Assembly: GCF_022808715.1 (NCBI RefSeq)
Contig: NZ_JAKZKX010000011.1
Span: forward strand, 1 to 39,715
Length of the DNA stretch: 39,715 nucleotides
Reading direction: 5' to 3'
DNA from: Fundidesulfovibrio agrisoli
GTDB lineage: Bacteria; Desulfobacterota; Desulfovibrionia; Desulfovibrionales; Desulfovibrionaceae
The position numbers were made by a program, and so were the translations under genes. Numbering within the stretch: position 1 is the stretch's first letter; every line of letters begins with the position of its first letter. A model generated the notes under the pieces. It was not told the origin of the DNA. It saw only the letters and a list, made by a program, of their open reading frames with translations, and did no database searches. Positions 9,623-30,879 of the stretch are shown piece by piece.

Positions 9623-9678
9623 GGGCTACGCCCTTTGGGATCCCGAAAGAAGTACACAGCGGCAGGTTTGTTGTTGGA

Positions 9679-9769
9679 GTCTCCCCGGTGAGACCGCGCA
9701 GGGCGGCGCACGCCGATAAATTGGAAGAATATCGTCATGCGCCGCCCTGCGCGGCCTCACCGGGGAGAC
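9679..9769. repeat. 91-bp near-perfect palindrome
   Basis: Two 32-nt arms (9679-9710 and 9738-9769) are inverted copies with a single mismatch, A9693 against C9755. Read on the minus strand that position becomes a G-U pair, so the minus-strand RNA hairpin is fully paired. The 27-nt centre can form a further 5-bp stem CGATA/TATCG. There is no T tract. It lies between convergent genes and is the longest inverted repeat in the window. Confidence 0.9.
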
Positions 9770-9847
9770 AATACGGTTCACGGCGATGGCCCAATGCGGC
9801 GATCCGGGGCAAGGCCAGCTTGCCGGACGCGAAGCTAAAGGGGAGTC

Positions 9848-9912
9848 GAGAGGGATGAAATCCCTCTCGCGGGGTCCAGGGGGAGCGCCCCTGGCCGCCG
9901 GAGGCTCTTCCC
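9848..9912 (-). repeat. Twin-hairpin element, copy 1 (after rimO)
   Basis: In the sense direction of rimO it reads: GCCTCCGGCGG linker, stem CCAGGGG-5 nt-CCCCTGG (9876-9894), ACCCCGCGAG, then a 9-bp stem with 3-nt loop (9848-9868). It begins within a few bases of the rimO stop. It shares the GCCTCCGGCGGCCA motif with the copy near 24903 and the CCTGGACCCCGC motif with the copy near 30663. Confidence 0.8.
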
Positions 9913-22879: not shown

Positions 22880-22930
22880 GCGGGGCTCCGCCCCGCACCC
22901 CGCAAGGGGGCGTGGCCCCCTTGACCCGCA
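22880..22930 (+). repeat. Twin-hairpin element, copy 2
   Basis: Stem 1 is GCGGGGC-TCC-GCCCCGC (22880-22896). The linker is ACCCCGC. Stem 2 is AAGGGGG-5 nt-CCCCCTT (22904-22922), followed by GACCCGCAA. It matches the copy at 30663 position for position outside the loops. It lies 42 bp after the activator stop, in the same orientation. Confidence 0.85.
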
Positions 22931-23050
22931 AATGGGGCGGGAAGGTGGATATTTGAACTTTCGCCATGCCTCGGGCCGTGAGGCGGGGCAGCGGGATCAG
23001 GCCAGACAAAGAGTGCGCGCGGGCATTGGCCCGCACTTCGGAAATACGGA

Positions 23051-23075
23051 AGGGGGCCTCGCGGCCCCCTCTTTC
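23051..23075. terminator. Hairpin between convergent genes, possible terminator
   Basis: AGGGGGCC (23051-23058) pairs with GGCCCCCT (23063-23070) around a 4-nt loop. CTTTCATT follows on the plus strand and TCCGTATTTC on the minus strand. It lies 27 bp past the stop of the amphi-Trp gene and may serve it. Confidence 0.55.
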
Positions 23076-23097
23076 ATTCGCGGCAGGTCTCGGCGGG

Positions 23098-23583
23098 CTA
23101 CAGCTCCACAGGCTTGACCCCGGCGGCCTCTTCGGTCTGGGGGGCATCCTCGGGCTTCTTCCCATGCTTCTTGTCGTGCATTTTCTCTTTCTTCTTCTCG
23201 GCCTTTTTGCCGTTCTTGCGCTGCTTCACCGGCTCGGGCTCCCCGGCGGGAGCGGCGGCCTGGACGGCCTCGCCCGGTGCGCAGGGTTCCTCCGCGGCGG
23301 CCTCGTGCGCGGCGGGCTCCGTGGCGCTTATGGTGAAATCGCCCGCGGGTACCTGCTCCGGGATCTCCTCCCACTTCACCTCCAGGCTGAACTTCTGCCT
23401 GCCCTTCTTGATGGCGGCCTCGATCTCGAAATCCATTCGGGTGGCGGGCTTGAGGGTGACGTATTCCGCGCCCTTGCGCAGGCAGATGGTGCCCGCCCGC
23501 AGGCTTCCGGCGAGGTCCGAGAGGATCTGCGCCAGGGCCTGGGGGTCCGTGACGCCGGAGATGGCGATGCTGGCTTTGCTCAT
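23098..23583 (-). CDS. Amphi-Trp domain protein with charged tail
   Basis: A 161-residue cytoplasmic protein. The first 85 or so residues resemble the amphi-Trp domain family of small proteins found in archaea and bacteria, with an alternating beta-strand core (LRAGTICLRKG, EYVTLKPATRMDFEIEAAIKK, FSLEVKWEE). The remainder is a low-complexity tail rich in Ala, Glu and Lys, including a lysine-rich stretch around 120-145. The molecular function of the family is not established. AGGAGC precedes the ATG at 23583. It starts 26 bp after a small DNA-binding-like protein on the same strand, and the pair is transcribed from the palindrome-controlled promoter upstream. Confidence 0.75.
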   Translation of the reverse strand: MSKASIAISGVTDPQALAQILSDLAGSLRAGTICLRKGAEYVTLKPATRMDFEIEAAIKKGRQKFSLEVKWEEIPEQVPAGDFTISATEPAAHEAAAEEPCAPGEAVQAAAPAGEPEPVKQRKNGKKAEKKKEKMHDKKHGKKPEDAPQTEEAAGVKPVEL

Positions 23584-23609
23584 GTATGGCTCCTGTGCTG
23601 TCGGCCGGT

Positions 23610-23885
23610 TCAGTCGGCCGTGTCTGGGGTGGCGTCCTGGCCGGAATCCGGGGACGGGGTTGCGGCGCGGCAGGGCCTGTCCTTGTTGGCGCGCTGCATT
23701 TCTTCGAGCTTCTTCTCGGCCTTGTGCAGGAACTTTTCGAGGGCCTTGTTGATGCACGTATCCACGTCGAGGCGTTTTTCGAACGAGCGGGAGAGCTCCC
23801 GCGCCTTGTCCAGGCGTTCGGCTGTGTCGACATAAACATTGAAAATCATGCGTTTTGTTTCGCGGTCGTTCTTGAATATGGACAT
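23610..23885 (-). CDS. Small ribbon-helix-helix-like protein
   Basis: A 91-residue protein with no firm family match. Its middle reads as strand-helix-turn-helix: MIFNVYV, then TAERLDKARELSRSF, then DVDTCINKALEKFLHKA, which is the pattern of ribbon-helix-helix DNA-binding proteins. The last 25 residues are disordered. GGGAG lies before the ATG at 23885. A 23-bp palindrome sits directly in its promoter, which would fit an autoregulator. It is followed after 26 bp by the amphi-Trp gene. DNA binding is inferred from predicted secondary structure only. Confidence 0.65.
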   Translation of the reverse strand: MSIFKNDRETKRMIFNVYVDTAERLDKARELSRSFEKRLDVDTCINKALEKFLHKAEKKLEEMQRANKDRPCRAATPSPDSGQDATPDTAD

Positions 23886-23899
23886 GGCTCCCTCTCAAA

Positions 23900-23948
23900 A
23901 TCCGTACAGAATTTGTACGGATCATACACAAACCGCAAAGCCCTGCAA
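23900..23948 (-). promoter_or_regulatory. Promoter with 23-bp palindromic operator
   Basis: On the minus strand, TTGCAG (23943-23948) and TATGAT (23921-23926) form a sigma-70 promoter with 16-bp spacing. The palindrome ATCCGTACA-N5-TGTACGGAT (23900-23922) begins inside the -10 box and covers the start site. The 9-bp arms are perfect. A dimeric repressor bound here would block transcription of the two small genes. Confidence 0.7.
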
Positions 23949-24011
23949 CCACCACCGGCCTTGACGCGGCAAGGCCCGGGGAACATGGAACCCGCAATGG
24001 AGGATACGCCG

Positions 24012-24230
24012 ATGGACGGTAAACTGGATATGATCTTCAAGGCGGCCGCGCTGGTGCTGCTGGCCATGCTGCTGCTGATCTACGCCGAGGGGCGCGATGT
24101 GGGGCGCTACGCCTACTTCCGGGACGGGGAGCTGGAGTTCGTGCTGGATACGAAGACGGGGGTGGTCTACCAGGGCGGCTACGCCATGAACCACCTCACC
24201 GGCAAGGAAGGGCCCGCGGCCAAGCCCTGA
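24012..24230 (+). CDS. Small single-pass membrane protein
   Basis: A 72-residue protein with one strong membrane helix (about 8-24, MIFKAAALVLLAMLLLIYA) and a short polar C-terminal domain. GGAGG at 23999-24003 stands 8 bp before the ATG at 24012; two upstream in-frame ATGs (23985, 23997) have poorer ribosome binding sites. Part of its leader overlaps the divergent promoter region of the small DNA-binding-like gene. Family not recognised. Confidence 0.6.
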   Translation: MDGKLDMIFKAAALVLLAMLLLIYAEGRDVGRYAYFRDGELEFVLDTKTGVVYQGGYAMNHLTGKEGPAAKP

Positions 24231-24249
24231 GGGGGGATATTCCGGAGAG

Positions 24250-24278
24250 AGCGGGCCGGACAGGGCGTCCGGCCCGCT
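24250..24278. terminator. Strong hairpin between convergent genes
   Basis: A 12-bp perfect stem (24250-24261 with 24267-24278) with a 5-nt loop, lacking a T tract on both sides. It lies 19 bp after one gene and 23 bp after the other. Confidence 0.5.
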
Positions 24279-24301
24279 GGAAAGGCTGGATGGCGGGGGG
24301 G

Positions 24302-24781
24302 CTACTGGTTGTTCATGATGCGCCAGGTGCCGTCGGGCTGGCGGCAGGCAGTGCCCCGTCCGGTCTCCTTCCTGCCGTCGATGTAGATGGACTGGGTGAA
24401 CTCGCGGCAGGGCGTTCCGTTGGGCTCGTAATAGGTGCGCTCGGGCGTGATGGTCGCCTGGCGGTTGGTGTTGGGGTTCTGCCACTGGGTCTGGCGGCGG
24501 TCGGGGCTGTTTTCCAGGGCGTAGGCCGCCTGCTTGCGGTCGTAGTCGTCCCAGAGGCTGCCCAGGTAGCCGCCCACGGCCGCGCCGATGATGACGCCCG
24601 CGATGGTGCCCATCACCCGCCCGGCGGGGTCGTTGCCGCCGATGGCTCCGCCTGCAACGCCGCCGGCGGCGCCGCCCGCGACCATGCCCACGTCGCGCTT
24701 GGTGATCTGGCCGTCGGGGGCGCAGGCGGCCAGCAGTTGCAGGGCGAGGGTGAACAGAACCAGCCTGGTAACGTACTTCAT
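24302..24781 (-). CDS. Glycine-zipper lipoprotein (17-kDa surface antigen type)
   Basis: A 159-residue lipoprotein. The lipobox LAAC puts the lipidated cysteine at C20. Two glycine-zipper segments follow (about 32-50 and 57-74, with repeated GGxxGGxxGG spacing), then a small C-terminal domain with the pattern YYEPNGTPCREFTQSI and GRGTACRQPDGTWRI, which matches the 17-kDa surface-antigen family of Gram-negative outer-membrane lipoproteins. The two cysteines in that domain could form a disulfide. AGGAGGA stands before the ATG. It is transcribed alone or from read-through of the DUF2156 gene upstream. Its role is structural or unknown. Confidence 0.88.
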   Translation of the reverse strand: MKYVTRLVLFTLALQLLAACAPDGQITKRDVGMVAGGAAGGVAGGAIGGNDPAGRVMGTIAGVIIGAAVGGYLGSLWDDYDRKQAAYALENSPDRRQTQWQNPNTNRQATITPERTYYEPNGTPCREFTQSIYIDGRKETGRGTACRQPDGTWRIMNNQ

Positions 24782-24902
24782 TACAATCCTCCTGTGAGAA
24801 ACTCTCAGCTTCTAACGCCAGTTCGGGCGGCTGGCTACTGAAACCGCGTTCATGTTGGCGCCGCTGAATACTCTCGCCGTGGGCGCGAAGCGCAAAAGGA
24901 TT

Positions 24903-24945
24903 CCAAAGGAACGAAGTTCCTTTGGCCGCCGGAGGCCTCAGCCTC
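24903..24945 (-). repeat. Twin-hairpin element, copy 5 (after the DUF2156 gene)
   Basis: In the sense direction of the gene it reads: GAGGC-4 nt-GCCTC, CGGCGG linker, then CCAAAGGAA-5 nt-TTCCTTTGG (24903-24925), followed by AATCC. The GCCTCCGGCGGCCA junction is identical to that in the copy after rimO. It begins 13 bp past the stop codon. Confidence 0.8.
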
Positions 24946-24958
24946 TCTGCTGTCCCGC

Positions 24959-25840
24959 CTATGCCGGATTCACGGTCACGGTGAACTTCTTCAGGAACGT
25001 CACAGGATTATAACTCATCTTGGCCTTGCGCAGGCCTTCGTCGCCCAGGTCCTGCTCGCGGTTCACGTAGGCGTATTCGCGGTCCAGGTTGTCCAGGAAC
25101 ATCTGGTTCACGGCCTGGTACACGCCCTTGAACGCGGTGTGCCCCTTCTCGAAGTGGATCACCAGCATGGAGTCGTCCAGGGCCTCGGCCACGGTGTAGG
25201 CGATCATGCGGCCCTCCACCCGGATGGCCCCGCCCAGCAGGTTGGGCAGGCGGTCCCAGTCCTTGACGACGCGGGCGATGGCCCGGTTTTCGGCCTCCAG
25301 GGTGGCGTCGCACTCGGCCTCGCGCCACTGGCACCACTCGAGCTGCATCTGGAGCACCTCCTCGATGCAGTCTGCGGAGAGGGGGCGGTAGTCGTAGTCG
25401 TAGGCCTTCATGAACTGCGAGAGCAGGTTCTTCTTCTTGTGGAAGCGGTTGCCGGAGAGGGCCACCAGCTCGGGCACGGAGTACACGTAGTCCCAGTGCT
25501 CGCGGGCCTCCTCGGCGTGGACGCGCCCGGGCATCGCCCCGGCCCAGATCTCGGCCAGGGCCTCGGGCACGCGGGTGAAGGTGCCGCCCTGGGCCAGGGT
25601 GGGGCAGCGGCTCCAGTCAACGTCGCGCCAGGGGCCGATGGGCGCCCAGTAGATGGTTTCGGGGCGGGTCTGGCGCAGCCACACGTGGGAGTCGCCGAAG
25701 GACCACTCCAGGCCGTACTCCTCGCACCAGCCCCAGAGGTTGGCGAAGGAGTAGTCCGAGGTGCGCTGCGGGCAGCCCGCAAGGCGGGCGAGGTAGTCCT
25801 CCCGCCTGTCGAGCGAGAGGGAGACGTAAGGCCTATTCAC
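24959..25840 (-). CDS. DUF2156 / phosphatidylglycerol lysyltransferase-domain protein
   Basis: A 293-residue soluble protein of the DUF2156 type, built of two GNAT-like folds and related to the catalytic half of MprF, which transfers lysine from tRNA to phosphatidylglycerol. Recognisable parts are the opening YSFANLWGWCEEYG, GNRFHKKKNLLSQF near the middle, and the ending REQDLGDEGLRKAKMSYNP. It lacks the membrane flippase half of MprF. The start is GTG at 25840, preceded by AGGAG; it overlaps the stop of the MATE gene by 8 bp, so the two are translationally coupled. Acceptor substrate is unknown; amino-acylation of a lipid or another small molecule is possible. Confidence 0.82.
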   Translation of the reverse strand: MNRPYVSLSLDRREDYLARLAGCPQRTSDYSFANLWGWCEEYGLEWSFGDSHVWLRQTRPETIYWAPIGPWRDVDWSRCPTLAQGGTFTRVPEALAEIWAGAMPGRVHAEEAREHWDYVYSVPELVALSGNRFHKKKNLLSQFMKAYDYDYRPLSADCIEEVLQMQLEWCQWREAECDATLEAENRAIARVVKDWDRLPNLLGGAIRVEGRMIAYTVAEALDDSMLVIHFEKGHTAFKGVYQAVNQMFLDNLDREYAYVNREQDLGDEGLRKAKMSYNPVTFLKKFTVTVNPA

Positions 25841-27212
25841 GAAAACTCCTGGGTTTTGTCATGGCGAACCGGGCCCAGTTCTTCACCCGGTAGACGACGA
25901 GCAGGGCCGAAGCCTGGAACGCCTGGGAAACAAGCATGGAAAGCCACACGCCGTCGGCGGTGCCCCAGGCCCGCCAGCCCAGCCACCAGGCCACGGGCAG
26001 GCGCACGCACCAGATGGAGACGGCGAACACGACGAGGTTGTACACCGTGGCCCCGGCCCCGGTCAAAGCTCCGGCAAGAATCATGCTGGTGCAGCTGAAG
26101 GGCGCGGCCACAAGGTTGTAGCGCAGGTAGGAGACGGTTTCGGCCGCCACCACGGGGTCCGGGGCCATGGCGGCGGAAAGTTCCGGCAGGAAGGGCCACA
26201 GGGCGAGCGCCAGCAGGCTCATGAGCCCCGTGCCCAGCAGCCAGATGCGATAGCCCATTCGTTTGGCCTCGGCCGGATCGCCCGCGCCCAGGGAGTGCCC
26301 CACCATGATCGAGGCCGTGAGGTTGAAGGCGAAGGCTGGCAGGAACACCCCCGATTCGATGCGCGCCCCGGCCGCGAAACCCGCCAGGGCCTCCACCCCG
26401 CCCGAGGGCAGCCCGCCGATGACGGCCAGCAGCACCATGTACCCCGAATGCCAGACCACCTGCATCAGCCCCGAAGGCAGGGCCACCTTGGCCATGTAGT
26501 ACCAGGCCCGGCGCACCCAGCGCAGCGGCGGAAACATGGATGCCTGCAGCAGGCCCGCCCGGCGCATGAGCCAGAAGTTGAGCGCCAGCCCGCCGGAGAC
26601 CGAGGCGAAGGTGCTCCAGGCCACGCCGATGTAGCCCATCTCCGGCAGGCCGAAGCGGCCCAGCCCGAGGCCCAGGTCCAGCCAGGCGTTCACCAGGCAG
26701 ACCAGGCCCATGGAGTAGAGCGGGGCCATGACCAGCTTGTGCGCGCGCAGCACCGCGCTGGTGATGATGAACAGGTAGTTGATGGGCAGGAGCCAGAGGA
26801 ACACGGTGAGTATTTCCCTGGTTGGGCCGAGCATGGGCGCGGGCACGTTGAGCAGGCCGAGGAAGCCGTCGCGCCAGGCCAGGCCTCCGGCCTGGGCCAG
26901 CGCGCCCAGGGCCGCGCCGGAGAGCAGGCACAGCCCGCCGTAGCGCGCCGCGCGCCTGAGCTTGCCCGCCCCCAGCGACTGGGAGAGCGCCGCCACCGAC
27001 CCGTTGGACACCGCGATGGCCACCGTGAGGAAGATGAACAGGGCCTGGGCCACCAGGCCCATGGCCGCCTGGGCCTCCCGGCCGATGCGTCCGCACACGG
27101 CCACGTCCGCGACCCCGATGAGGAAGTTGAAGACCATCATCAGGATCTGCGGCCAGGTGAGCTGCCAGATGGAGCGGTAGGGGCGTGAGGTGTCTATGTT
27201 CACGGGGTTCAA
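25833..27212 (-). CDS. MATE-family multidrug/metabolite efflux transporter
   Basis: A 459-residue inner-membrane transporter with about 12 membrane helices arranged as two MatE repeats. The opening helix reads LTWPQILMMVFNFLIGVADV, and similar hydrophobic segments follow to the end. MATE proteins export cationic drugs or metabolites in exchange for sodium or protons. The start is uncertain: TTG at 27212 is the longest reading, GTG at 27203 is more usual, and neither has a clear Shine-Dalgarno. It overlaps the downstream DUF2156 gene. Family is secure, substrate unknown. Confidence 0.92.
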   Translation of the reverse strand: MNPVNIDTSRPYRSIWQLTWPQILMMVFNFLIGVADVAVCGRIGREAQAAMGLVAQALFIFLTVAIAVSNGSVAALSQSLGAGKLRRAARYGGLCLLSGAALGALAQAGGLAWRDGFLGLLNVPAPMLGPTREILTVFLWLLPINYLFIITSAVLRAHKLVMAPLYSMGLVCLVNAWLDLGLGLGRFGLPEMGYIGVAWSTFASVSGGLALNFWLMRRAGLLQASMFPPLRWVRRAWYYMAKVALPSGLMQVVWHSGYMVLLAVIGGLPSGGVEALAGFAAGARIESGVFLPAFAFNLTASIMVGHSLGAGDPAEAKRMGYRIWLLGTGLMSLLALALWPFLPELSAAMAPDPVVAAETVSYLRYNLVAAPFSCTSMILAGALTGAGATVYNLVVFAVSIWCVRLPVAWWLGWRAWGTADGVWLSMLVSQAFQASALLVVYRVKNWARFAMTKPRSFRE

Positions 27213-27315
27213 GGCCTACGTAAGCGCGGGCGTGCGGTCAATGGGGGATCGCCCTCTGGGGCCGGGTGGGTCGACCGTGCTTCAGCCGGTGGCAGGCTTG
27301 TGCCGAGGTTTTAGT

Positions 27316-27333
27316 TATGTTAGCCCTAGCATA
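27316..27333. promoter_or_regulatory. Imperfect palindrome before the ModE-like gene
   Basis: TATGTTA-GCCC-TAGCATA has 7-bp arms with one mismatch and lies 27 bp before the start codon in an A/T-rich patch. Location and composition fit an operator for the ModE-like protein encoded next, but it is not the enterobacterial ModE box. Confidence 0.45.
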
Positions 27334-27359
27334 TATGTTTTTTTAGGGAAAGGTGACCA

Positions 27360-27746
27360 ATGGACGCACCCTACGCCGTGCTGCGCCTGCACACCTGGCT
27401 CGAAGTCCCGGAAGGGATGCTTTTGGGCCTGGGGCGGGCGGAGCTGCTGATGCGCATCGAGGAGACAGGCTCCCTCAACAAGGCCGCCCAGGTGATGGGC
27501 ATGTCCTACCGGGCGGCCTGGGGCAGGCTCAAGGCCAGCGAGGCCATCGTGGGCGAGCCCCTGGTGGAGAAGACCCCGGGCAACAAGGGTTTCGTGCTCA
27601 CCGCCCTGGGCAAGCGCCTGACCGTCGACTTCAAGTCCTGGCACGACGACGTGGAACGCTACGCCCTGGCCCGCGCCAGGGAGACGTTCCCATGGCCGGT
27701 GGAATCTTTCCAGACAAAGGAGAAGGAGCGCAATGCTCAAGGATAG
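27360..27746 (+). CDS. ModE-like winged-helix regulator (DNA-binding domain only)
   Basis: A 128-residue protein matching the N-terminal winged-helix domain of ModE: LGLGRAELLMRIEETGSLNKAAQVMGMSYRAAWGRLKASEAIVGEPLVE, then the wing at about 80-90. ModE controls molybdate uptake and Mo-enzyme genes, sensing molybdate through C-terminal MOP domains; these are absent here, so this form must sense something else or nothing. Stand-alone ModE-type regulators are known from sulfate reducers. Its stop overlaps the next gene by 14 bp. The molybdenum-type gene downstream supports a role in molybdenum or tungsten metabolism. Confidence 0.88.
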   Translation: MDAPYAVLRLHTWLEVPEGMLLGLGRAELLMRIEETGSLNKAAQVMGMSYRAAWGRLKASEAIVGEPLVEKTPGNKGFVLTALGKRLTVDFKSWHDDVERYALARARETFPWPVESFQTKEKERNAQG

Positions 27747-29358
27747 GCTTGTCTGCGGCCTCAGCCGGGCGGAATACGTGGAGCGGATCACCTGGTTCCA
27801 CAACTATGCAGCTCCCGGCCTGCTGGTGGGCGGGTTCATGGTGGACGCCGCGCGGCGCAGGCTGCCCGAGGGCACGCTCTTCGAGGCCGCCTGCGAGACG
27901 ACCTCCTGCCTGCCGGACGCGGTGCAGCTCTTCACCCCCTGCACCGTGGGCAACGGCTGGCTGCGGGTTCTGGATCTGGGCCGCTACGCCCTGACCCTCT
28001 ACGACAAGTACACCGGCCAGGGCTTCCGCGTTCACATGGACCCGGCCCTGCTCGGCCCCTACCCGGAGATCGCGGGCTGGTTCCTCAAGCGCACCCCCAA
28101 GGCCGAGCAGGACACCGAAGCCCTGGCGGACGAAATCTTCGAAGCCGGGGAGTCCATCCTCACGGTGCGCCGGGTGCAGGTTTCGGCCGCATACCTGGGC
28201 AAGAACCACAAGGGCTCCATCGCCGTCTGCCCGGCCTGCGGCGAGGCCTACCCGGCCAAGCACGGCGGGCTGTGCAAGGGCTGCCTGGGCGGCTCCCCGG
28301 TGCTGCGGGCCGAGGCCGCGCCCAGGCCCCGCGCGGTGCCCGTGGCTCAGGCCGTGGGCAGGCGCGCCCTGCACGACATGACCGAGGTGCAGCCCGGCGT
28401 CTCCAAGGAGGCCAGTTTCCAGCGTGGCCAGACCATCACCGCGGGCGACCTCTGCCGCCTGCAGCGCATGGGCCGCATGGAGGTGTTCGTGGAGGACGAG
28501 GGCGGCCCCGAGGCCGGGTTCGTCCACGAGGACGACGCCGCCACGGCCCTGGCCGGGGCGCTCTGCCAGGGCGGCGCGCTGGAGGCCGCGGGGCCACCGC
28601 GCGAAGGCAAGATCACCCTGTTGGCCGCCCGCGACGGCCTGTTCACCGTGGACGTGGAGCGCCTGCAGGCCCTGAACGCGCTCACCGACGTGGCCCTCTC
28701 CGTGCGCCACCACGGCAGCCTGGTCAAGGCCGGGGAGGCCGTGGGCGGGGTGCGGGCCATCCCCCTGCACCTGGACCGCGCCGTGCTGGACAAGGCCCTG
28801 GCCCTGTGCTCCGGGTCGCTCTTGCTGGATGTGGCCCCCCTGCGCCGTCTGCGCGCCGGGGCGCTCATCACCGGCTCCGAGGTGTTCACCGGACTCATCG
28901 AGGACAAGTTCGCCCCCGTGCTGGCCGCCAAGCTCCAGGCCCTGGGCTCGGAACTGGCCGAGGTGCGCTTCGCCCCGGACGACGCAGAGGCCATAGCCGC
29001 TGGCGCGCGCGAACTGCTCCGGAGCGGCTGCGAGCTGATTCTGACCACGGCGGGCATGAGCGTGGACCCCGGCGACGTGACCCGCAAGGGTTTGCAGGAC
29101 GCGGGCGTGAGCGGTGAGCTGTTCGGCATGCCCGTGCTGCCCGGCAACATGCTGCTGCTGGCCCGGGCCGGGACAGTGCCCGTGATCGGGGTGCCCGCCT
29201 GCGCGCTGTTCCACCAGGTCACCAGCCTGGACATCCTGCTGCCGCGCGTGCTGGCCGGGCAGGAGATCACCCGGGCGGACCTGGCCGCTCTTGGCCACGG
29301 CGGCTTCTGCATGAACTGCGTGCGCTGCTCCTTCCCGCATTGCCCGTTCGGCAAGTAG
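27733..29358 (+). CDS. FmdE-MoeA-type fusion protein (Mo/W cofactor related)
   Basis: A 541-residue fusion. The N-terminal FmdE domain (about 1-150) shows WFHNYAAPGLLVGGF and LPDAVQLFTPCTVGNG, as in the formylmethanofuran-dehydrogenase-operon protein E. A zinc ribbon follows (CPACGEAYPAKHGGLCKGC, about 164-182). The C-terminal half contains a molybdopterin-binding MoeA/MogA-like domain (about 375-515; GALITGSEVFTG, then TTAGMSVDPGDVT). The last 20 residues are cysteine-rich (CxxCxxCxxxxC) and may hold a metal cluster. It is probably involved in Mo- or W-cofactor handling for a formate- or formylmethanofuran-type dehydrogenase. Starts within the upstream ModE-like gene; AAGGAG precedes the ATG. 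Confidence 0.88.
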   Translation: MLKDRLVCGLSRAEYVERITWFHNYAAPGLLVGGFMVDAARRRLPEGTLFEAACETTSCLPDAVQLFTPCTVGNGWLRVLDLGRYALTLYDKYTGQGFRVHMDPALLGPYPEIAGWFLKRTPKAEQDTEALADEIFEAGESILTVRRVQVSAAYLGKNHKGSIAVCPACGEAYPAKHGGLCKGCLGGSPVLRAEAAPRPRAVPVAQAVGRRALHDMTEVQPGVSKEASFQRGQTITAGDLCRLQRMGRMEVFVEDEGGPEAGFVHEDDAATALAGALCQGGALEAAGPPREGKITLLAARDGLFTVDVERLQALNALTDVALSVRHHGSLVKAGEAVGGVRAIPLHLDRAVLDKALALCSGSLLLDVAPLRRLRAGALITGSEVFTGLIEDKFAPVLAAKLQALGSELAEVRFAPDDAEAIAAGARELLRSGCELILTTAGMSVDPGDVTRKGLQDAGVSGELFGMPVLPGNMLLLARAGTVPVIGVPACALFHQVTSLDILLPRVLAGQEITRADLAALGHGGFCMNCVRCSFPHCPFGK

Positions 29359-29374
29359 ACGGTATGGGAGCGGC

Positions 29375-30598
29375 ATGCTCCTGAGCTTGAAAATCGCCCT
29401 GCAGGCCCTGGCCACGCACAAGCTGCGCACGGCCCTGGCCATGCTGGGCGTTTTTCTTGGTGCCCTGGCCCTTACCGGTGTGCGCCACGTTTCCAAGGCC
29501 ATGCTGCGCCAGGCCGAGATAGAGGTCGAAAAGCTCGGCCCCAACCTCTTCGCCGTGCTGGCCGGGCAGGTGCGCTTCACCCGCGGCGGCGCGGCCCGCA
29601 CCCCCGGCGGGGCCAACACCTTCGCCCTGGAGGACGCCCAGGCCCTGATCCGCTCCCTGCCGGGGGTGGTCAAGGCCGTGCCCCTGGTGCTGCGCACCGT
29701 GCCCATCCGCAAGGGCAACACCACGGTGCAGGCCCAGCTTGTGGCCGCCTGGCCGGACTACCCGGCCGTGCGCTCCTTCCAGCCCGAGCTCGGGCGCTTC
29801 TACACCTGGCAGGAGGAGAACGAACGCGCCAAGGTGGTGGTGCTGGGCCTCAAGATCGCCCAGCGCCTCTTCGGCGACCCGCAGAAGGCCGTGGGCGAGG
29901 TGGTCTACATCTTCAAGGCCGGGCTCGTGGTGGTAGGCGTCATGGAGGAGAAGGGCGCGGACATCTCCGGCACCGACCAGGACGAGCAGATCTTCGTCCC
30001 GCTCTCAACCTACATGCGGCGCATGGCCAACCAGACCTGGGTCACCGGCGTGTTCATGCAGATGGCCGACGGCACGGACTTCGCCCGCACCAAGTCGGCC
30101 GCCACGGAGATCATGCGCCTGCGCCACAACATCACCGGCGGCAAGAAGGAGGACTTCTCCGTGCTCACCGCCGAGGACACCATGCAGCTCAAGCAGCAGG
30201 CCCTGGACCTGGTGGAGGTGCTTGGCATCATCAGCTCCACGCTCTCCTTCGCGGTGGGGGGGCTGGGCATCCTCTCCATCATGATCCTGCTGGTGAGGGC
30301 CAGGCGCCTGGAGATCGGCGTGCGCCGCGCCATGGGGGCGCGCAGGACAGACATCATGCGCCAGTTCCTGCTGGAATCGGGCATGATGAGCGCCGCCGGA
30401 GGCGCGGCCGGGGTTCTGGCCGCCCTGGGGCTGTTGACGGTGGTCTATTCCCTGGGCGGCTTCCCCTACGTCTACGACGGCTGGCTCATCGCGCAGGCCC
30501 TGGCCGGGTCGGCGCTGCTGGGCTTCGCCGCCGGGGCCTACCCGGCCTGGCAGGCCGCCAACGTGGAGGTGCTCCAGGTGCTGCGCGGGAAGGAGTAG
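29375..30598 (+). CDS. ABC transporter permease, MacB/FtsX type
   Basis: A 407-residue permease with one N-terminal membrane helix (about 17-38), a large periplasmic MacB_PCD domain (about 45-275) and three C-terminal helices forming the FtsX domain (about 284-307, 338-360, 370-390), including the signature RRLEIGVRRAMGARRTDI. MacB-type systems move substrates or signals using energy from a separate ATPase. No ATPase gene is beside it. It begins 17 bp after the FmdE fusion, GGGAG before its ATG, so it belongs to the same transcript. A twin-hairpin repeat follows. Substrate is unknown. Confidence 0.9.
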   Translation: MLLSLKIALQALATHKLRTALAMLGVFLGALALTGVRHVSKAMLRQAEIEVEKLGPNLFAVLAGQVRFTRGGAARTPGGANTFALEDAQALIRSLPGVVKAVPLVLRTVPIRKGNTTVQAQLVAAWPDYPAVRSFQPELGRFYTWQEENERAKVVVLGLKIAQRLFGDPQKAVGEVVYIFKAGLVVVGVMEEKGADISGTDQDEQIFVPLSTYMRRMANQTWVTGVFMQMADGTDFARTKSAATEIMRLRHNITGGKKEDFSVLTAEDTMQLKQQALDLVEVLGIISSTLSFAVGGLGILSIMILLVRARRLEIGVRRAMGARRTDIMRQFLLESGMMSAAGGAAGVLAALGLLTVVYSLGGFPYVYDGWLIAQALAGSALLGFAAGAYPAWQAANVEVLQVLRGKE

Positions 30599-30614
30599 GA
30601 GAGATTTCGGAAAT

Positions 30615-30631
30615 GCGGGGCTACGTCCCGC
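30615..30631 (+). repeat. Solo hairpin resembling stem 1 of the twin-hairpin element
   Basis: GCGGGGC-TAC-GTCCCGC folds with one G-U pair and has the same stem sequence as the first hairpin of copies 2 and 3. It lies 16 bp after the permease stop, 32 bp before copy 3. Confidence 0.6.
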
Positions 30632-30662
30632 GTCTCCCAGAGAGCAGGAGTGTTTTCTTGAT

Positions 30663-30717
30663 GCGGGGCGCTGCCCCGCGCCCCGCCAGGGGGATGATCC
30701 CCCTGGACCCCGCAATA
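30663..30717 (+). repeat. Twin-hairpin element, copy 3
   Basis: Stem 1 is GCGGGGC-GCT-GCCCCGC (30663-30679), then GCCCCG, stem 2 CCAGGGGGAT-G-ATCCCCCTGG (30686-30706), then ACCCCGCAA. It matches copy 2 along its length, with paired changes at the outer base pairs of stem 2. Confidence 0.87.
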
Positions 30718-30750
30718 ATCGGCCCGGGAGGCAAAGCCTCCCGGGCCGAT
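30718..30750. other. 15-bp perfect hairpin after twin-hairpin copy 3
   Basis: ATCGGCCCGGGAGGC (30718-30732) and its exact inverse (30736-30750) flank an AAA loop. It has no T tract. It lies directly after copy 3 in the gap between convergent genes and may act as a bidirectional barrier. Confidence 0.7.
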
Positions 30751-30801
30751 CATGTTCCGTGAGAACGCGATGCGCGCAGGCCGGAACGCGAAGCTACTTG
30801 G

Positions 30802-30858
30802 GGGTGCAGGGGCATCATGCCCCTGCCGGAGGGGTTCGGGGAGGCAGCGCCTCCCCGA
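30802..30858 (-). repeat. Twin-hairpin element, copy 4 (after the hybrid kinase gene)
   Basis: In the sense direction of the kinase gene: TCGGGGAGGC-GCT-GCCTCCCCGA (30836-30858), ACCCCTCCG linker, GCAGGGGCAT-G-ATGCCCCTGC (30806-30826), then ACCCC. It begins 21 bp after the kinase stop. Its first loop (GCT) and second loop (ATGAT centre) equal those of copy 3. Confidence 0.8.
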
Positions 30859-30879
30859 GAAAATATCATCCCGGCCGCC

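Follow-up and report, generated by a model that had tools for sequence, protein, structure and literature searches.

The closest described system is the BoxC repeat of E. coli and other proteobacteria, also known as the PIT element or TM_ECO (Holder et al. 2015, PMC4666352). The repeats reported here resemble it as short GC-rich multicopy intergenic sequences that combine a hairpin with a mirror third strand, and they are comparable to the BoxC loci, which are more rearranged between close strains, show no strand bias and have no adjoining transposase (PMC4666352). BoxC is present in 23 copies in MG1655 and in up to 143 in one genome, and follows the class II pattern CCCTCNCCC N3-6 GGGNGAGGG N3 GGGNGAGGG (PMC4666352). 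The MG1655 copies are nearly identical (PMC4666352), and thus leave little room to see co-evolution. Triplex formation by BoxC in vivo was reported to a minor extent or temporarily only, which we count against a triplex reading, and as we read that paper the importance of intrastrand triplexes in living cells is still open (PMC4666352).

Three other kinds of sequence share some of these features. H-DNA mirror repeats also contain a homopyrimidine tract with mirror symmetry, whereas here one strand makes a covarying hairpin as well, so that a triplex is possible within one strand. The REP/REPIN-RAYT elements (PMC3733652) are likewise dispersed small palindromes in inverted pairs, but for our repeats no RAYT was found in the genus, and they have a mirror tail and no GTAG/CGTC tag. 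Intrinsic terminators have a GC-rich hairpin 3' of the stop codon; the repeats differ from them in the absence of a U tract directly after the hairpin, in many antisense copies, and in sometimes lying alongside or beyond a normal terminator. No account of this repeat family was found in the literature searched, and Desulfovibrio does not appear in the main text of PMC4666352.

The window, that is, the whole 39,715-nucleotide stretch of Fundidesulfovibrio agrisoli DNA analysed, contains five elements: E1 (9848-9912), E2 (22880-22930), E3 (24903-24945), E4 (30663-30717), and E5 (30802-30858). A sequence-only reading had described them as twin hairpins on one common plan, placed in sense after stop codons and lacking T tracts. 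Strong hairpins are indeed present at all five places, and by our own gene calls all five follow the upstream stop codon in sense, at distances of 4 nt (E1), 42 (E2), 13 (E3), 64 (E4), and 21 (E5), with no T tract directly 3' of any of them. The single plan does not hold, as the repeating unit is one hairpin with a mirror tail: E1 consists of the head box GCCTCCGGCGG and two hairpins, E3 has one hairpin only behind the same head box, E2 and E4 form one further class, and E5 another. The features are as follows.

9828..9835, minus strand: E1 end tag GCTTCGCG
9841..9869, minus strand: E1 second unit, hairpin CGAGAGGGAT-ttc-ATCCCTCTCG with mirror tail ACTCCC; 6 triplets; class I motif on the plus strand, 9841-9866
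9871..9905, minus strand: E1 first unit, hairpin CCAGGGG-cgctc-CCCCTGG with tail ACCCC; 5 triplets; class I motif on the plus strand, 9871-9892
9895-9905, minus strand: E1 head box GCCTCCGGCGG, inside the first unit
22880..22901, plus strand: E2 first unit, GCGGGGC-tcc-GCCCCGC with tail ACCCC; 4 triplets past a one-base spacer; missed by the 5-triplet scan
22903..22927, plus strand: E2 second unit, CAAGGGGGC-gtg-GCCCCCTTG with tail ACCC; 4 triplets; missed by the 5-triplet scan
24884..24891, minus strand: E3 end tag GCTTCGCG
24896..24936, minus strand: E3, single hairpin CCAAAGGAAC-ttc-GTTCCTTTGG with tail AATCCTT; 7 triplets; class I motif on the plus strand, 24896-24922
24926-24936, minus strand: E3 head box GCCTCCGGCGG
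30663..30684, plus strand: E4 first unit, GCGGGGC-gct-GCCCCGC with tail GCCCC; 4 triplets past a one-base spacer with the given pairing
30686..30711, plus strand: E4 second unit, CCAGGGGGA-tga-TCCCCCTGG with tail ACCCC; 5 triplets; class I motif on the minus strand, 30688-30711
30720..30748, strand not assigned: central inverted repeat of the E4/E5 composite
30787..30794, minus strand: E5 end tag GCTTCGCG
30801..30826, minus strand: E5 second unit, GCAGGGGCA-tga-TGCCCCTGC with tail ACCCC; 5 triplets; class I motif on the plus strand, 30801-30824
30828..30858, minus strand: E5 first unit, TCGGGGAGGC-gct-GCCTCCCCGA with tail ACCCCTCC; 7 triplets past a one-base spacer; class I motif on the plus strand, 30829-30855

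Each unit has the order CCAGAGAGGG-loop-CCCTCTCTGG-ACTCTCCC, where the tail mirrors, rather than complements, the 3' arm of the hairpin. Read on the G-rich strand, this gives third strand, purine arm, loop and pyrimidine arm, the arrangement of a class I intrastrand DNA triplex (G.GC, A.AT, T.AT). Eight of the nine hairpin units in the window have 4-7 allowed triplets (six without a spacer, two with one spacer base); the ninth, the first unit of E4, has 4 once simple pairing is imposed, the free script having picked another pairing that gives 1. Values of 6-7 are confined to the E1 second, E3 and E5 first units, the remaining units having 4-5. For the two E2 units and the first E4 unit, which are the smallest, the mirror barely extends beyond C-runs, as any C-rich tail would give. 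No Rfam family matches within the window at gathering score. In a relative (G003) E3 is absent, and the E4/E5 composite there, as in the copies L024, L113, and L124, has a corresponding central repeat with terminator-like flanking A/T runs.

Genome scans used the published definition of three adjacent blocks with allowed triplets, stem 6-15 and loops 1-6 (PMC4666352), here with a hairpin loop of up to 8. In 828 kb, the scan with stem 6 detected intrastrand triplex motifs in the classification of Maher/Holder: 43 perfect class I motifs in intergenic regions, 1 in genes, and 1 in one shuffle. With stem 7 the counts were 26, 0, and 0, and with stem 8 and one bad rung allowed 27, 0, and 0; stem 5 gave 67 intergenic motifs, yet 9 genic and 20 shuffled. 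The class II scan (stem 8) tolerated one bad rung because BoxC has an in-stem mismatch; it recovered E. coli BoxC at its published place and found none in the 828 kb, which does not support membership in BoxC/TM_ECO, the sequence pattern itself having been run on the E. coli control only. The two families also differ in that the third strand lies 3' in BoxC (pyrimidine, purine, third strand) and 5' here, and in that the new family has another sequence, its own head box GCCTCCGGCGG and usual end tag GCTTCGCG, and one or two units per copy. Inverted pairs of units are spaced by 46 nt at three loci and by 65 nt at a fourth, and in the first 429 kb there are 32 paired intergenic hairpins, compared with 3-13 in 10 dinucleotide shuffles. 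The repeats constitute a new family of class I, whose function we infer; judged by the named relatives, its range would be the Desulfovibrionaceae.

Paired stem substitutions, already proposed from the window, are borne out in 143 distinct units from the genome of F. agrisoli and its relatives: pair 3 is AT in 72, GC in 59, CG in 7, TA in 2, and other in 3. At the orthologous E2 site CAAGGGGG/CCCCCTTG is replaced by CCAGGGGG/CCCCCTGG. Such changes had been taken to indicate selection on RNA folding, for which they are insufficient alone, and the tails favor DNA. At least 5 consecutive allowed triplets are found in 118 of the 143 units, and none in 10. At the level of the 47 stem-arm types the mean is 4.87 triplets versus 2.17 with permuted tails (permuted maximum 3.02, 0/5000 as high), and as a mirror of the 3' arm the tails of 43 types score 218 versus 167 permuted (maximum 189, 0/5000), or 153 versus 111 in the 29 informative types; these permutation tests take no account of descent. 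At 25 positions where the arms disagree, of which 11 represent the same A.C variant recurring at pair 4 and hence are not independent, the tail matches the 3' arm in 23 cases, neither arm in 2, and the 5' arm in none. A purine-motif DNA triplex on the opposite strand requires such tracking; a C-rich RNA triplex does not. A C-strand triplex, in which the tail would be the parallel complement of the 5' arm, scored above chance (4.22 versus 2.35), but at the disagreeing positions the 3'-arm mirror does better. The parallel-complement rule on all intergenic hairpins, with no family filter, is weak (38 runs of at least 5 versus 22 permuted).

In the long class D stems, with unbroken mirrors of up to 17 and 16 positions, the mirror scores 23.3 versus 17.3 permuted (maximum 19.3 of 300), and the third strand would change purine strand half-way up the stem, with G/A on the lower purine arm and, above it, G on C-G pairs and T on T-A pairs. 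Other relations of the class D tail to the 3' arm were rejected: a direct copy scored slightly above chance (14.6 versus 13.35 permuted, maximum 14.1), an inverted copy 10.3 versus 10.9, and a complement only 11.6 versus 11.3.

The motifs are intergenic and lie on the 3' side of genes. In three genomes, 36/81, 25/54, and 31/52 placed motifs fall in convergent gaps, which make up 25-28% of gap length, versus 5/81, 4/54, and 1/52 in divergent gaps (20-27%). The sequence-only reading was to be refuted by an absence of covariation in a wider alignment or by random orientation; the covariation is strong, the bias in orientation relative to genes weak. Head-box copies in co-directional gaps of the 828 kb are 10 sense and 12 antisense, a count that excludes class A, whose pattern found 1 copy and missed E2 and E4. 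A looser search gave 54 sense versus 31 antisense (p=0.017 over three genomes, no single genome significant), and the strict sense orientation of the window is therefore at most a weak bias genome-wide. A replication-strand bias, hinted at by runs of plus-strand matches, disappeared in the complete listing for genome G321 (41 forward, 58 reverse, interleaved). The earlier suggestion of a mobile repeat fits the turnover, since sites come and go between species: among 73 orthologous gaps compared with a relative of 93.3% mean amino-acid identity, 4 of the 7 recognised element sites are shared, 2 occur only in F. agrisoli and 1 only in the relative. Subtypes show expansions. As for MITE features, occupied and empty sites are observed; insertion ends and target duplications are not definable. 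No enzyme moving the units was found.

A role at RNA 3' ends, with the C-rich strand forming a transcript hairpin that either terminates transcription in the absence of a U tract or stops 3' exonucleases, accounts for the 3'-side placement, the enrichment in convergent gaps and the modest sense surplus. A T4 run within 12 nt follows just 2 of 26 sense or convergent copies, and 20 of the 26 have no terminator-like site before them or within 90 nt after. A 3'-end or termination role is thus possible, but as the explanation of the family it is unlikely: head-box copies are nearly evenly divided in orientation, some copies sit past a normal terminator (L113, L114, and L124), an RNA hairpin explains neither the mirror tail nor why it tracks the 3' arm, and a C-rich RNA triplex requires tracking of the 5' arm, seen at 0/25 positions.

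The disagreement data also agree with H-DNA, that is, a mirror repeat of 3' arm and tail selected in supercoiled duplex with the other hairpin arm incidental, since the two pyrimidine tracts must then mirror each other while the 5' arm is free. We nevertheless regard this as improbable, because the 5' arm is kept complementary via paired changes and mirror arms of 4-8 bp appear short to us. No likelier is dispersal by an IS200-like RAYT transposase, as for a REP/REPIN-type element, despite the many intergenic copies of short palindromic units in inverted pairs. Y1_Tnp (PF01797), matched in 7 of the 24 genomes searched, was not found in any of the 7/7 genomes of the genus searched, in G321 or in the single-contig G329, leaving RAYT mobilisation unsupported in the genus; no GTAG or CGTC tag is present at the palindrome end, where the head box and usual end tag are found, and the mirror tail is no REP feature known to us.

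The elements are therefore best described as what is probably a dispersed DNA repeat family with a class I intrastrand triplex core motif. When single-stranded, the G-rich strand could form a hairpin with one purine and one pyrimidine arm; the segment preceding it on the 5' side, complementary to the tail, could then occupy the major groove in antiparallel orientation as third strand (G.GC, A.AT, T.AT). Such a triplex may form in cells, with selection acting on the DNA strand, and the folded strand may be recognised or copied by host machinery as units disperse or as one converts another at a site already occupied. At gene ends insertion would be tolerated, and a polymerase-stalling structure might also be of use there. 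To our knowledge, no template copying produces mirror copies, so the repeated re-matching suggests preservation of the three-stranded fold itself. A bolder proposal, toward which we lean somewhat less than away, is that the family records natural selection for a cellular DNA triple helix, the long class D members representing an evolutionarily maintained alternate-strand triplex that might serve as a spreading substrate or a gene-end roadblock.

The family thus offers a large set of short repeats, in a group of sulfate-reducing bacteria, whose arms have co-evolved as if one strand folds three-stranded. Its 47 stem-arm types, most with a matching third strand, amount to a natural compensatory-mutation experiment, and it supplies test sequences, namely variants with mismatches, one site with a type swap, and presence/absence pairs, in a group that has culturable members.

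Each of the five intergenic elements E1-E5 lies 4-64 nt downstream of the stop codon of a gene in the same sense, as the sequence-only reading had it, once the intervals are folded and genes are predicted by a compact dicodon-based finder. The window is the 39.7-kb start of contig C3 in a 3.94-Mb genome, which we sampled over 828 kb (the window and 40 further stretches). Over the initial 429 kb of this genome, intergenic paired hairpins number 32 versus 3-13 in ten dinucleotide shuffles, and Rfam had no match anywhere in the window. Box CCTCCGGCGGC occurs 52 times in the sample, 45 of them non-genic, and a few of these 45 have no element. The copies fall into classes of different anatomy.

Classes of the repeat family and their copies in the window
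Class A (E2, 22880-22930; E4, 30663-30717): GCGGGGC hairpin, CCCCGC, hairpin, ACCCCGC
Class B (E3, 24903-24945): GCCTCCGGCGG, single hairpin, tail, then often GCTTCGCG
Class B2 (E1, 9848-9912): as class B but with two hairpins
Class C (E5, 30802-30858): GGGGAGGC hairpin, ACCCC(T/A)CCGGC, hairpin, ACCCCC, usually GCTTCGCG
Class D: long stem topped by GAAAC(C)TTT, long tail

Since one- and two-hairpin copies exist, the twin hairpin first proposed as the family unit is not borne out, and the unit is a hairpin plus its tail. E4 and E5 are a single composite around a central inverted repeat, and this A-repeat-C arrangement recurs between convergent genes at loci L024, L113, and L124. E1 adjoins a radical-SAM/TRAM protein (Pfam), the nearest named records of which come from Desulfovibrio-type bacteria (best 63% identity); these names suggest that the family is Desulfovibrionaceae. 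Beyond E2, still within its gap, lies a canonical-looking intrinsic terminator hairpin (23048-23073).

After each hairpin the reversed 3' arm recurs as the tail, as in CCAGAGAGGG..CCCTCTCTGG ACTCTCCC, CCGGGAGGGG..CCCCTCCCGG ACCCTCCC, and CCAGGAGGGGG..CCCCCTCCTGG ACCTCCCC, which span different genera. We scored this mirror rule on 314 loci with 323 boxes GCCTCCGGCGG, of which 250 passed the hairpin filter and the remaining 73 were left out, yielding 143 distinct units and 47 types of 3' arm. Over the 43 types with at least six positions, the mirror score reached 218, and permutation gave a mean of 167 (maximum 189 of 5000); the 29 types in which a T is informative scored 153 versus 111 (maximum 129). 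At 25 positions with a mismatch or wobble between the arms, the tail agrees with the 3' arm in 23 cases, the 5' arm in none, and neither in 2; 11 disagreements are a single A.C variant that recurs at pair 4, and thus the independent cases are fewer than 25. A covarying family is upheld, and at E2 our genome and its relative G003 differ by a compensatory pair, but the tail's adherence to one arm speaks against the proposed selection on RNA folding. One and the same hybrid of two stem types, with an A.C mismatch, recurs in different genera as class B units CCAAAGGG..CCCTCTGG ACTCCC (our genome, L035, and L053), as if 5' and 3' halves had recombined at the loop.

Among 348 genomes of the order, 110 match the stem-top pattern of class D; G322 has 133 copies and G329 has 138, counted on one strand of a hairpin that matches on both. 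Forty elements were extracted with a C-rich-tail filter and 39 scored, one C-only tail being dropped and a few rows with a palindromic stem read the wrong way being kept. As a mirror of the 3' arm the tail scores 23.3, versus 17.3 when tails are swapped at random among elements (maximum 19.3 of 300), and the longest unbroken mirrors span 17 (L319) and 16 (L334) positions. As a direct copy of the 3' arm it scores 14.6 versus 13.35 permuted (maximum 14.1), slightly above chance, and as an inverted copy 10.3 versus 10.9.

Class D substitutions
Y=C: C 273, T 11, A 3, G 1, gap 3
Y=T: T 128, C 31, A 15, G 3, gap 1
Y=G: A 24, C 22, G 9, gap 1
Y=A: A 137 of 138

Many T-to-C and G-to-A cells arise because the tail lacks one T where purine switches to pyrimidine (TTTG over TTCA), and the 'C over G' reading therefore rests in part on allowing a shift. 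An independent sign is the number of C before the tail A-run, which tracks the stem: two or more letters in 10/10 CC stems (including one CG and one GCC) and in 3/23 C stems (p=3e-6; 33 of 40 elements readable). On the class D G strand, the third strand might cross over and lie on the purines of the opposite arm.

To our knowledge, mirror copies are made by no copying process, and three-stranded DNA demands a mirrored pyrimidine tract; for these reasons we read the family as triplex. In the nomenclature described by Holder et al. (2015; PMC4666352), class I has the order third strand, purine, pyrimidine, with purine-motif triplets G.GC, A.AT, and T.AT, so that the C-rich strand of the sequence-only reading is class III and its complement class I. 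The class I third strand pairs by this code with the purine strand (PMC4666352), here the complement of the 3' arm, in agreement with the tail's tracking of that arm; T.AT likewise accounts for A frequently standing over T in the first tail positions. At least five consecutive triplets were found in 118 of 143 units and none in 10, and the type-level mean was 4.87 triplets versus 2.17 permuted (maximum 3.02 of 5000). Scoring the 5' arm instead brings 102 of 143 units to five triplets, and thus the two readings part only where the arms disagree. Since RNA is described as not forming purine-motif triplexes (PMC4666352), DNA is more likely than RNA to be the molecule under selection.

Perfect class I motifs in the 828-kb sample, counted as intergenic/genic/one dinucleotide-shuffled copy, amount to 67/9/20 with stem 5, 43/1/1 with stem 6, and 26/0/0 with stem 7. 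When one bad rung is tolerated in a stem of 8, class I gives 27/0/0 and class II 0/0/0; the same scan finds the E. coli BoxC copy at 4,314,285, as class II. In the window, the perfect 5-triplet scan detects six motifs, all within E1, E3, E4, and E5, and none at E2. Scored singly, 6 of 9 hairpin units have 4-7 triplets with no spacer; one spacer base is needed in the first units of E2 (4 triplets) and E5 (7), and the first E4 unit has 4 by its simple pairing, the scoring script having paired it differently. Taken alone, neither E2 nor the first unit of E4 would be convincing as a triplex motif.

The box pattern, counted as matches without a hairpin check, has 112 copies in our genome and 32-149 in all six other genomes of the genus searched. 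It is patchy in the family (28/59 genomes, ours included), rare in other families of the order (4/24 genomes, 1-4 matches each), and outside the family is found once or twice in 9/286 genomes of the phylum. The GGAGG subtype is expanded in all 14 genomes of genus g25 (10-158 copies), which named loci with this subtype (L042, L051) suggest to be Solidesulfovibrio; G280, of another genus, has 18 and all others 0-8. Several contigs of our genome have a head-box copy in roughly their first 300 bp (C4:169, C5:67, C10:302, C11:268, C13:192, C15:144, C19:157), which suggests that the assembly breaks at longer identical repeats surrounding these copies.

Comparison with G003 (110 orthologues, 93.3% mean amino-acid identity) covered 73 orthologous gaps with seven recognised element sites, four shared, two in our genome only (E3 and one other), and one in G003 only. 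At E1 the flanks are kept and the hairpin types differ, each with its own matching tail. The gap before E1 contains a large inverted repeat (9679-9710 and 9738-9769, 32-bp arms, one mismatch), and because most of 9623-9820 is missing from the G003 gap (87 versus 294 bp), this would seem to be a separate insertion specific to the lineage, or else a stretch that G003 has lost. The G003 gap orthologous to 30599-30879 carries about three imperfect tandem copies upstream of a class A element, with a unit containing GAGAGCGGGATTGTT(T)GCAGGATAC.

By a loose finder, divergent gaps hold 5/81 placed motifs in our genome, 4/54 in G030, and 1/52 in G321 (stretches picked because they contain copies), versus 27, 20, and 20% of gap length; convergent gaps hold 36/81, 25/54, and 31/52 versus 25-28%. 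Matches inside genes (124, 30, and 18) were taken for chance, and 14, 5, and 0 at stretch edges were left unplaced. Sense orientation, true of all five window elements, is at most a weak bias in co-directional gaps (25:15, 17:8, and 12:8; total 54:31, p=0.017). Strict head-box copies split into 10 sense and 12 antisense, with 10 convergent, none divergent, 6 at edges, and 1 genic. All five class C copies are convergent. Of 26 copies that are sense or convergent, 6 have a terminator-like site before them or no more than 90 nt after. At L015 (13382-13415) an antisense class B copy lies 8 nt upstream of a called start codon, where GGAGG of the head box could be a ribosome-binding site. Near class B units in L011, L111, and L116 another repeat recurs next to inverted arms; its core resembles GTTCTTCAAATACAGC and reads GTTGTTC in L011.

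Intrastrand triplex repeats are already known as a kind. BoxC of E. coli, for which Holder et al. (PMC4666352) cite earlier tests with a polymerase block in vitro and no promoter or terminator activity, is class II, whereas the family here is class I, with no class II motif in 828 kb. The open-access literature searched contained no report of a class I family whose third strands co-evolve. A Y1 transposase was found in none of seven genus genomes searched, nor in single-contig G329. Most likely, the family is a dispersed DNA repeat whose conserved form would be the folded G strand, whose units would spread or convert by some machinery, and whose copies would be retained at sites where insertion does no harm. 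The repeats might also function at gene ends by making polymerases stall between convergent genes.
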